In this document: positions 4,143-37,639 of the stretch, in pieces
How positions within the stretch are numbered: the first letter of the stretch is position 1
Layout of the letters: each line of letters begins with the position of its first letter
IMG/VR virus record: IMGVR_UViG_3300037540_000072
Location: 1 to 43,856 of that record
Direction: 5' to 3' (one strand)
Length of the DNA stretch: 43,856 bases
Source of the DNA: a virus
Notes under the pieces: generated by a model
Seen by the model: only the letters and a program-made list of their open reading frames with translations
Told to the model about the DNA's origin: nothing
Databases searched by the model: none
Position numbers and translations under genes: made by a program

Positions 4143-4232
4143 TTAGCCCCTTTCTGTACATAAAAAAAGCCCAAGGAGGCCGTATGCGACTACGAAAATT
4201 CCCTGAGCTATTATTATTGTTGATTGTCGCAT
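4143..4232 (-). CDS. Candidate membrane micropeptide, 29 aa (minus strand)
   Basis: ATG with AATAGGTTGT upstream; one transmembrane stretch follows (TIIIAQGIFVVAYGLLGLFL), then a polar CTERG end. It stops 4 nt before the start of the 45-aa membrane protein, whose Shine-Dalgarno site overlaps its last codons, so the two look like a unit. A weak promoter candidate lies upstream at 4249-4276. The start codon lies in one arm of a 9-bp inverted repeat. Confidence 0.42.
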   Translation of the reverse strand: MRQSTIIIAQGIFVVAYGLLGLFLCTERG

Positions 4233-4234
4233 AC
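4182..4234. repeat. 9-bp inverted repeat carrying two start codons
   Basis: GTATGCGAC at 4182-4190 and its reverse complement GTCGCATAC at 4226-4234 are separated by 35 nt. Each arm, read on its own strand, contains ATGCGA, the start of one of the two opposed micropeptide frames. In RNA from either strand the start codon would be inside the stem. Confidence 0.85.
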
Positions 4235-4273
4235 AACCTATTACCTATACTCTACCCTAATATTTCACGATAG
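4184..4273 (+). CDS. Candidate opposed membrane micropeptide, 29 aa (plus strand)
   Basis: On the opposite strand an ATG is preceded by AAGGAGG at ideal spacing, the best Shine-Dalgarno match in the region. The peptide has a basic start (MRLRKF) and a hydrophobic core (LLLLLIVAYNLLPILY), like a type I toxin or holin-like peptide. It overlaps almost the whole 29-aa minus-strand frame. No clear plus-strand promoter is visible, so expression is uncertain. Confidence 0.25.
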   Translation: MRLRKFPELLLLLIVAYNLLPILYPNISR

Positions 4274-4276
4274 CAA
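4249..4276 (-). promoter_or_regulatory. Weak sigma70-type promoter candidate
   Basis: Minus strand TTGCTA (4276-4271), 16-nt spacer, TAGAGT (4254-4249). Each hexamer matches 4 of 6 consensus bases. It would place a start site about 10 nt before the 29-aa micropeptide frame and would drive the small membrane genes and the replication genes. Intergenic space 4233-4340 holds nothing else that I can see. Confidence 0.3.
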
Positions 4277-6639: not shown

Positions 6640-7434
6640 TCATTCCGGCTGGGCGTCGAGCCTGTACAGCTTGTCGTCTGCATAAGCGCCTGTTAGCCAC
6701 TCAGCAGCACCCGTTACATGTTCCATCTGGAGATTGTCACGGCATTTCTCAAGCAATATCGCCTTAACACAGCACTTATGCACAGCAAAGCCTTCTTTTG
6801 GAGGCAGGGCGTTACAGATAGCACTTATCACTTCTTGCTCGGCTGGGGAGGCTACCAGGGCTTTGGGTGGCGGTGGAGTGTCGTAAGCTCCGTTGCCGTC
6901 GTCCCCCATGTCATCGGTCGCAAGACCAACAGCAGCGAGAAGCGTTATTTGTTCAAGGTAGCTAATAGTGCTTTTGATTTGCTGTATGGGATTCTTCTTG
7001 CCTGAATCGTCAGGTGGCGCAAAGAGAGTAGTTTTTTCGCTATGGCCAAGCCTATGAGTCAAGAAGCAAGTGACATAAACCATACTTTCCTTTTGGTCAG
7101 GTTTCCAAGTCGCAGATAATCCATGCTCGCTCAGGGCTTTGCTTATTGTGGCGGTCACATTAGCTAAGCTTGAATATTTCGAGTCATATTGCTTATTATG
7201 CTTATCCTTGATGATTTTGGGTGGATTTTCCTTGAATGCCGCCATTGAAACGTGAAAAGCTTTTCTGGCTTCCTCGGCCTCGTAGTCTTTACGAATAGCA
7301 AACATTTCTTTCATCGTGGCAGTGTCGATCTCTGCTCCGTTAGCCAAAAGGTTTACCATCATTGCAAATGGTGATTCTTCTTTGGCTGTCAATGCCTGTG
7401 GCTCCTTTTTTACTATTTCATTGTCCATCTTCAT
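6640..7434 (-). CDS. erf: ERF-family single-strand annealing recombinase
   Basis: Matches the ERF superfamily of phage recombinases that anneal complementary single strands made by a partner exonuclease. Signature stretches are AFHVSMAAFKENPP, then KYSSLANVTATISKALSEHGLSATWKP (the ERF core 'Y.a.l..i...i...L..hGls'), a HRLGHSEKTTLFAPPDDSGKKNPIQ strand and ISYLEQITLLAAVGLATDDMGDDGN, equivalent to the conserved YA.ryaL...lgi...DDDgn. The third codon (ATG 7428) has better spacing from AAGGAG than the first. It is 6 nt downstream of the Exo gene, the usual pairing. Confidence 0.92.
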   Translation of the reverse strand: MKMDNEIVKKEPQALTAKEESPFAMMVNLLANGAEIDTATMKEMFAIRKDYEAEEARKAFHVSMAAFKENPPKIIKDKHNKQYDSKYSSLANVTATISKALSEHGLSATWKPDQKESMVYVTCFLTHRLGHSEKTTLFAPPDDSGKKNPIQQIKSTISYLEQITLLAAVGLATDDMGDDGNGAYDTPPPPKALVASPAEQEVISAICNALPPKEGFAVHKCCVKAILLEKCRDNLQMEHVTGAAEWLTGAYADDKLYRLDAQPE

Positions 7435-7440
7435 AACTCC

Positions 7441-8094
7441 TTAGAATGGGTTTGATTGTCTGATTTCCGCTAAAGCCTCCTGCTTGAAAGCCTCGCATTT
7501 TACTTGTAATTCTGCTATCGCCAGTTCGTCTCGTGGAACCCTGACTATCAAAAGACGTTCCTTTGGCATCTTATAGCGGGGATCGTAGCTTATCCAGTCG
7601 CACCACTTTGCACCTGCTAACCACATATTCCCCTGTATTTGCAAACGATATGTCGGGTCGAACCAAACCGGATTTTTGAGTAACATTCGACTATACCGGT
7701 ATTGAGTTGAACTGTCCGGGCATTTTACTTCGATTATGCCGTCTTCACCGACAAGTCCGTCAGGGCTTCCACCGATCCAGTCAGATAGCTCAATAAAGCC
7801 AACCCTGCGGACGATGACTTTTTGCGGTTGATTCTTGCTTTTGTTTTTCTCGTATTCAGATACTGCTTCGTCTTCGTGTTCTGTTCCCCAGTCCATCGCC
7901 CCATAAGTGCGATTGGGACCAGGTAAGCCCGTCTTTCTTTCAGAAATAACCTTATCCATGTACTTGCGTCTGCCATCACTTGGGCCACCGCTTCGACCTT
8001 TCGCGCAGACCGTTGGGAACTTACTGGAAGTCATTTTGCCGGACCTAGCCAACAACCATTCATCCGAACCTTGCTCCATCATGTGTATCTTCAT
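7441..8094 (-). CDS. YqaJ/lambda-Exo-like recombination exonuclease
   Basis: A 217-aa PD-(D/E)XK nuclease of the YqaJ/lambda exonuclease family, which digests one strand from double-strand ends to give substrate for the annealing protein. Visible motifs: QGSDEWLLARSGKMTSSKF (residues 8-26), WGTEHEDEA (69-77), the catalytic GGSPDG (108-113) and IIEVKCP (120-126, Glu-Val-Lys), and YRLQIQGNMW (149-158). Its start overlaps the HNH-like gene upstream by ATGA. It forms a Red-like pair with ERF. Confidence 0.93.
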   Translation of the reverse strand: MKIHMMEQGSDEWLLARSGKMTSSKFPTVCAKGRSGGPSDGRRKYMDKVISERKTGLPGPNRTYGAMDWGTEHEDEAVSEYEKNKSKNQPQKVIVRRVGFIELSDWIGGSPDGLVGEDGIIEVKCPDSSTQYRYSRMLLKNPVWFDPTYRLQIQGNMWLAGAKWCDWISYDPRYKMPKERLLIVRVPRDELAIAELQVKCEAFKQEALAEIRQSNPF

Positions 8095-8582
8095 GTTTTA
8101 ACCTTTCTATGTATAGCAACATGGCATGGGATACATTTCGCAATGACATCTAGCCAGTTTTCCTTAGCGTACCCTTTGTAATGATGGTACTGTTTCGCCT
8201 TCTCGCCGCAACTGCATATCAAGCTATCGGGACGAGGAATGGCACCTCGCCTTATGGCGCAGCGCACAGCCTCCATGGCTTGCACTTGCAGAGGATGGCC
8301 CTGTCTGAATATTTTTACATTTCTCCGTCTTGCGACCTTTCCTTTCTCGCTTCTTGTATAGCGAATAGAGATGGATTTGAGTATTTTTTTCCCTTCCTCT
8401 GTTTGGGCGTACTTTCTTTGATAATCTCTTAGTTTCTTTTTATTGCCTTCGTCAGCACAATAATTTACGTTGACAATCCTAGAGCAGGATTTACACTCGT
8501 ACCTATACCCACTTTTATGAGTATTGTGCCTGTAGAAGCTAGACAGGGGTTTTGATTCTTTGCATTTAGTGCATGTTTTCAT
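8091..8582 (-). CDS. Zinc-finger plus HNH-like endonuclease
   Basis: ATG at 8582 gives 163 aa. The N-terminal module is CTKCKESKPLSSFYRH ... YECKSC, a zinc ribbon typical of phage HNH proteins. The C-terminal module has ICSCGEKAKQYHHYKGY...W and a final CIPCHVAIHR, a compact treble-clef HNH variant (Cys pairs plus His-His and C-x-x-C-H-x-x-I-H). A DNA nicking or homing nuclease is likely. It has its own upstream promoter candidate and structured leader (8599-8722). It overlaps the Exo start by ATGA, so that promoter could also drive the Exo-ERF genes. Confidence 0.75.
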   Translation of the reverse strand: MKTCTKCKESKPLSSFYRHNTHKSGYRYECKSCSRIVNVNYCADEGNKKKLRDYQRKYAQTEEGKKILKSISIRYTRSEKGKVARRRNVKIFRQGHPLQVQAMEAVRCAIRRGAIPRPDSLICSCGEKAKQYHHYKGYAKENWLDVIAKCIPCHVAIHRKVKT

Positions 8583-8598
8583 GGTTTGATTCCCAATG

Positions 8599-8688
8599 AA
8601 AAAGCCAGTCAGAGTTGTTACGCAGCGGGCCTGTACGGCCGGAATGCCTCTGACTGACTTCAATTGATTGGATTGCACTGCGTAACAT
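8599..8688 (-). ncRNA. Candidate ~90-nt structured leader or small RNA with interleaved stems
   Basis: Predicted RNA starts near 8688 and ends in a U-run near 8599. Four arms occur in order: 8687-8678, 8656-8648, 8625-8616 and 8614-8606. Arm 1 pairs perfectly with arm 3 (10 bp) and arm 2 with arm 4 (9 bp), so the two stems interleave, as in a pseudoknot or mutually competing attenuator. The arm 2-4 stem is followed by GCTTTTTC, like an intrinsic terminator. It lies between a strong promoter and the HNH-like gene. Pairing and positions are seen; expression and function are inference. Confidence 0.5.
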
Positions 8689-8694
8689 ACCATA

Positions 8695-8722
8695 ATAATA
8701 ACCTATATTCCTGGAAAGTCAA
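8695..8722 (-). promoter_or_regulatory. Sigma70-type promoter upstream of the HNH-like gene
   Basis: Minus strand TTGACT (8722-8717), 16-nt spacer, TATTAT (8700-8695). The -35 region reads TTGACTTTC, shared with the promoters at 37472 and 41689. The start site would be near 8688. Confidence 0.62.
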
Positions 8723-37471: not shown

Positions 37472-37499
37472 AATATACATCATAGTTGTAGAAAGTCAA
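37472..37499 (-). promoter_or_regulatory. Structural (late) operon promoter
   Basis: TTGACT (37499-37494), 16-nt spacer, TATATT (37477-37472) on the minus strand, with the same TTGACTTTC block as at 8722 and 41716. Predicted +1 falls on the ATG of the 56-aa gene. Confidence 0.7.
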
Positions 37500-37610: not shown

Positions 37611-37639
37611 TTGACTTTTTATGTTTTATTGGGTATAGT
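37611..37639 (+). promoter_or_regulatory. Divergent plus-strand promoter
   Basis: TTGACT (37611-37616), 17-nt spacer, TATAGT (37634-37639), the best sigma70 match in the window. It faces away from the structural promoter, 110 nt distant, and starts the only plus-strand cassette. The T-rich, AT-rich stretch 37500-37610 between them shows no gene. Confidence 0.78.

Follow-up and report, generated by a model that had tools for sequence, protein, structure and literature searches.

A promoter-linked RNA leader with two interleaved stems and a start codon at its predicted 5' end, found before nuclease, methylase and replication genes of phages: a putative gene switch

The element ahead of the HNH gene

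The window, by which we mean the whole stretch of 43,856 nucleotides that was analysed (IMG/VR virus record IMGVR_UViG_3300037540_000072), carries on its minus strand the genes for an HNH endonuclease, an exonuclease and an Erf-like annealing protein, and ahead of these an element at 8722-8599 (copy 1; Table 1), the sense strand of which is likewise the minus strand. The predicted RNA is ~90 nt long, with arms in the order 1-2-1'-2'. The original prediction had described four perfect interleaved arms, a U-run on the second stem and a TTGACT-16-TATTAT promoter placing +1 at the first arm. These parts were recovered: a repeat search returned the interleaved pairs 8616-8625/8678-8687 (10 nt, 100%) and 8602-8614/8648-8660 (13 nt, 92%), the U-run occupies 8603-8599, and the promoter (8722-8695, minus strand) has a consensus score of 10/12 and a predicted +1 at ~8688, where the first arm begins. 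The layout was nevertheless incomplete, as three things had escaped notice: between the arms lies a small hairpin, an AUG at +1 opens a frame of 40 codons, and the window has two further copies.

Table 1. Positions of the leader copies, their parts and the adjoining genes in the window
Feature	Position	Strand	Remark
-35 box TTGACT, copy 1	8717-8722	-	homologous box in L116
-10 box TATTAT, copy 1	8695-8700	-	spacer 16 nt
Leader frame, copy 1, 40 codons	8566-8688	-	AUG 8688-8686, 6 nt behind -10 box
Stem 1, 5' arm	8676-8687	-	starts inside AUG; covariation
Stem 2 (terminator-like), 5' arm	8648-8661	-	covariation
Small hairpin GGCC-loop-GGCC between arms	8628-8640	-	folding and reading of alignment
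Stem 1, 3' arm	8616-8627	-	1 nt ahead of stem 2, 3' arm; covariation
Stem 2, 3' arm	8601-8614	-	covariation
U-run behind stem 2, terminator-like	8599-8603	-	
HNH endonuclease gene	8091-8582	-	zinc ribbon and HNH, phrog_2340; first gene behind leader, ATG 8582
Exonuclease gene	7441-8094	-	4-nt overlap with HNH stop
Erf-like annealing protein gene	6640-7434	-	behind exonuclease gene
Copy 2 promoter TTGACT-17-TATAGT	37611-37639	+	
Copy 2 stem 1, 11 bp	37649-37659/37709-37719	+	
Copy 2 stem 2, 12 bp	37675-37686/37735-37746	+	followed by U-run
Copy 2 leader frame, 35 codons	37647-37754	+	AUG 7 nt behind -10 box
Copy 3, whole	4168-4276	-	relaxed descriptor; weak promoter 4276-4249
Copy 3 stem 1, 13 bp	4238-4226/4190-4178	-	
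Copy 3 stem 2, 10 bp	4209-4200/4177-4168	-	followed by U7
TTGACTT-N14-16-TATNNT sites	8722-8695	-	
	37499-37472	-	
	37611-37639	+	
	41716-41689	-	

With extension of the ends and G-U pairs, stem 1 reaches 12 bp (TGTTACGCAGTG/CGCTGCGTAACA) and stem 2 reaches 14 bp (GAAGTCAGTCAGAG/CTCTGACTGGCTTT), with estimated duplex energies of about -18 and -21 kcal/mol, respectively. The loop lengths of 14, 20 and 1 nt would allow both stems to form in one molecule, and given that the 3' arms of the two stems are nearly contiguous, the 5' end would sit at the helix junction. Folding of the single strands, a method unable to form the knot, already yielded z = -3.3 for the minus and z = -1.6 for the plus strand. 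The GGCC hairpin pairs in the homologues L116 and L178 (see below) as well, with the register shifted by one. The AUG of copy 1 coincides with the predicted +1, which would make it a leaderless start, and its frame shares the last 17 nt with the start of the HNH gene. The position of the element fits the earlier proposal that it controls entry to the HNH-exonuclease-ERF block (same strand, 4-nt overlap between the first two genes); a specific tie to the exonuclease and ERF genes does not hold up, as unrelated genes follow the design elsewhere.

Homologues, covariation and recurrence of the design

The combination of promoter, interleaved stems and U-run at 8722-8599 is real. Searched for with a strict descriptor comprising exactly these three parts, it was absent from 40 dinucleotide-shuffled versions of the window; within 3.3 Mb of scanned loci plus the window it was found only at copy 1, its homologue and copy 2. 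A scan of IMG/VR for stem-1-like arms yielded two true relatives, L116 and L178, which were also the only true matches of the fixed-arm pattern scans (most others were coding repeats), and a third, L527, came from a search around HNH-AP2 genes. The four sequences align without gaps and show the compensatory changes that the original prediction expected in related phages: 7 of the 24 pairs changed on both sides (4/12 in stem 1 and 3/12 in stem 2), as in the replacement of GTTACGCAG/CTGCGTAAC by GGAACGCAG/CTGCGTTCC in stem 1 of L527. In this sample of four, 97.9% of the alignment cells are paired, against only 27-43% in slid registers, and in none of 500 shuffles was the pairing, the number of double changes or the covariation score as high as in the real alignment. 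Judged by the alignment, both stems of an H-type (interleaved) pseudoknot are kept via compensatory change. The three relatives precede HNH genes of another type (HNH_3 with AP2), so that the leader was not inherited together with one gene. The element is absent upstream of relatives of the HNH gene of the window.

Other searches returned no kin. BLAST against deposited phages and plasmids gave no relatives, and tblastn with the leader peptide gave nothing convincing. A covariance model (R1) run on ~600 bacterial genomes had as its best matches L433-L438, which visual inspection ruled out because they lacked stem 1 or lay inside genes. Rfam 15, in which the Infernal models leave out pseudoknot pairs, gave no match at copy 1 even at E<=10, and none at the homologues or the other scanned members. 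HDV-like ribozymes have a similar arm order, but no ribozyme model in Rfam matched copy 1; compared with such ribozymes the element has no P4 and a long first junction. Within the open papers, which cover the literature incompletely, the design is not described, and relative to these and to Rfam 15 it appears to be novel.

A relaxed descriptor, consisting of two interleaved stems and a U-tail and using neither promoter nor codons, recovered the two further window copies and about 22 in other phages (~25 members). With a promoter filter its background amounted to 2 weak matches in 3.2 Mb; 1.27 Mb around HNH-AP2 genes contained about a dozen more members with promoters, versus 0 in 0.62 Mb of shuffled sequence. 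The arm sequences of the members are mostly unrelated, even within one phage, as are those of copy 2 and copy 1. The genes behind the members include about ten HNH endonucleases, Dam-type methylases, an MmcB-like protein, probable replication initiators (judged by inspection) and, for a single member, a tRNA. In that last case (L467, 6651-6845 +) the member ends directly at the tRNA gene (6770-6845) and no protein gene adjoins; with a 7-nt loop along 16 bp (L467 +6686) it is borderline for coexisting stems. The phages G602 and G606 have a divergent leader pair in common (L459 +11912/-11802; L469 +2729/-2619), a two-way promoter region with one knot per side.

Nearly all members sit in uncultured phages. 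P1 (half), P4, N15, HK022, PAJU2, BcepC6B and parts of further deposited phages contained no strong member, and no cultured example of the design was present among the deposited phages scanned; a weak candidate was seen in a deposited metagenomic phage (L589, MW202520.1, ~15806 -). Since the design recurs with different sequences in many phages and before varied genes (those for nucleases, methylases and replication among them), it probably represents a gene switch that has gone unrecognised. The earlier suggestion, an attenuator or a pseudoknotted regulatory RNA that has a promoter to itself, gains support from the conserved promoter, the covariation, the absence of an Rfam match and this recurrence.

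A putative leaderless frame across the knot and how it might act

Predicted promoters, here consensus matches, accompany the design. A score of at least 9/12 at 0-16 nt upstream was found for 16 of the 22 matches scoring at least 24, compared with 3.2% of random positions, a contrast that is somewhat inflated as these matches come from member-bearing sequences picked via promoter-filtered members. The promoter family TTGACTT-N14-16-TATNNT occurs four times in the window versus 0.09 expected (Table 1). At the site that starts at 37499 on the minus strand, a leaderless small gene opens with an ATG that follows the -10 box by 6 nt, and the knot is absent.

The first AUG follows the -10 box at a distance of exactly 6-7 nt, which puts it at +1, in 13 of 25 members (p ~3e-12 in a simple binomial that ignores relatedness, the members being partly non-independent). 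When the frame is set by the first ATG 3-13 nt behind the -10 box, it continues without a stop beyond stem 2 in 17 of 20 cases, and the two remaining frames do so in 4 and 5. The leader frames of the members have 30-44 codons and cross the knot; their stops usually fall within about 25 nt of the start of the next gene (11 nt ahead of the next ATG, 37766, for copy 2), and several overlap it as ATGA. Exceptions in AUG or open frame are L463, L499, L486 and copy 3 of the window, the AUG of which is inside stem 1 and away from +1; in L451 (-13981) the stop codon precedes the end of stem 2 by 8 nt. In most members stem 1 starts inside or beside the AUG, and folding would thus bury the start codon. 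The substitutions among the four homologues are without third-codon-position bias, and ten leader peptides had no significant match in Pfam or PHROG. Both observations indicate that openness is kept and the peptide is not; the open frame appears to matter and the peptide sequence appears unimportant. For lack of a codon-position bias, the leader frame was rejected as a conserved protein.

The frame that runs from +1 across the knot, overlooked earlier, changes the mechanism that is most likely. Given the stems, their covariation and recurrence and the statistics of promoter, AUG and frame, we favour, at about even chances, the reading that the leader attenuates transcription and that translation of the leaderless mini-ORF within it acts as the gate; start site, termination, translation and regulation are what we infer from these data. 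A Sigma-70-type polymerase would start at the A of the AUG. A ribosome that loads at once on the 5'-terminal AUG would trail the polymerase and prevent pairing of stem 1 and of the 5' arm of stem 2, by which the terminator would be blocked and the downstream gene transcribed, and, judging from the positions of frame and stop, it would finish at or over the next start codon and so couple translation. If no ribosome has loaded before ~75 nt are made, stem 1 would pair the region of the AUG with what will become the terminator loop, stem 2 and the U-run would then form, and the transcript would end after ~90 nt with its AUG locked.

The leader has two features of a leader-peptide attenuator in that a predicted promoter lies directly upstream and a short frame overlaps the predicted terminator. 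The stems interleave without shared bases and there is no competing antiterminator helix. For this reason we do not count it among the classical attenuators, and since the stems are not mutually exclusive by pairing, the antitermination step would depend on the ribosome alone. Stem and U-run are present in every member by construction of the search, and the terminator loops are long (~33 nt). Long terminator loops usually weaken termination.

More tentatively, with somewhat less than even chances, the members may form a widespread class of phage switches defined by structure, with a leaderless +1 AUG inside a pseudoknot of which stem 2 is the terminator; it would work as a once-only, irreversible race between ribosome and folding and be attached to mobile HNH, methylase and replication genes. 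If true, this would be a modular phage leader that ties transcription to prompt translation and needs no Shine-Dalgarno site, peptide signal or protein factor. It would account for terminators directly behind the promoters of selfish phage genes and give leaderless initiation a clear role. With its free arm sequences such a leader would be hard to find by sequence-based RNA discovery and could be common, and it might serve as a compact, programmable part.

Other readings have to be weighed. The knot could sense a protein, in the style of T4 gp32, or a metabolite, and thereby set termination or translation. The compactness of the interleaved knot, its place at the start of the message, the recombination genes behind copy 1 and some unpaired bases that are invariant across the four homologues agree with this, but arms and loops vary within one phage and the genes behind are unrelated, unlike a single-ligand site or an autoregulator, and the +1 AUG and open frame are left unexplained; we consider such sensing unlikely. 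An equally unlikely reading takes the terminated ~90-nt RNA itself as a trans-acting or antisense product, like the immunity RNAs C4 of P1 and CI of P4 that phages are known to employ. The small RNA of the original prediction is possibly this terminated product, the terminator-like end lies directly behind the promoter, and arms that differ between copies would give specific, orthogonal RNAs. Nevertheless, the P1 region with c4 and the P4 genome yielded no promoter-linked match to the design, and an RNA product does not predict a frame that reaches the next gene.

Quite improbable in our view is an insulating terminator embedded in the promoter region, which would stop transcripts from upstream and let its own pass as only these carry a 5'-terminal AUG. 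It would explain the terminator directly behind the promoter, and it agrees with the upstream genes on the same strand and the position of copies before separately promoted genes (e.g. HNH and methylase); it makes the same sequence predictions as the attenuator gated by the mini-ORF, but stem 1 would be needless for simple insulation. That the region merely encodes a real small protein, with incidentally complementary arms, is very improbable: the frame stays open and the peptides of the four homologues have 14-21 of 30 residues in common, yet the substitutions are spread evenly over the codon positions and occur in compensating pairs, perfect interleaved stems persist in members with unrelated peptides, and the ten peptides were without database match. 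Chance repeats, common as short inverted repeats are, can practically be dismissed on the shuffles, background scans and covariation.

Comparison with known leader RNAs

One Rfam family has a layout like that of the element. The window contains a single match to the int-alpA RNA (RF02996, 41616-41687 -), located at the +1 of the promoter TTGACTTT and followed by a U-rich end and an HNH_3-AP2 gene (ATG 41594); elsewhere (L479, 9773-9841 +) this RNA again lies ahead of an HNH-AP2 gene. Judging by its name it is presumably known from between int and alpA. Promoter, RNA at +1, U-rich end and HNH gene are thus held in common, but the int-alpA RNA has an outer stem around two hairpins and a conserved CUAG...GAAAA, and the element scores below the RF02996 gathering threshold. 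Membership of the same family was rejected, as bacterial int-alpA copies have no AUG at +1. In the int-alpA RNAs (L557-L583 and the window copy) the loop of the second hairpin is, by eye, the complement of bases that follow the U-rich end (CCTTC, CCCTG and CCTCAAC versus GAAGG, CAGGG and GTTGAG) and the two covary across loci. This is possibly a pseudoknot with a ribosome-site-like sequence, absent from the Rfam structure line shown.

Like C4 of P1 and CI of P4, the element is a phage leader RNA with complementary arms and a short frame in one operon; those are processed antisense RNAs within longer leaders. With the leader-peptide attenuators of the trp/his type it has in common a promoter-proximal stem and U-run, here terminator-like, and an overlapping short frame before the gene behind it. 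It differs from these in the start codon at +1, the lack of a Shine-Dalgarno site and of a run of regulatory codons, the interleaved instead of competing side-by-side stems, and a frame that crosses the terminator to the next start codon.

The gene 32 mRNAs of T4, T2 and RB69 contain a pseudoknot near the 5' end, to which gp32 binds to block translation, with an A+U-rich tract that extends up to the ribosome site (PMC3014915). Both are 5'-proximal knots in phage messages for DNA metabolism, but a terminator and a leaderless frame are not described there (PMC3014915), whereas the element has a terminator-like stem and a putative leaderless frame. The element moreover occurs in several copies per phage, and its sequence is not kept.
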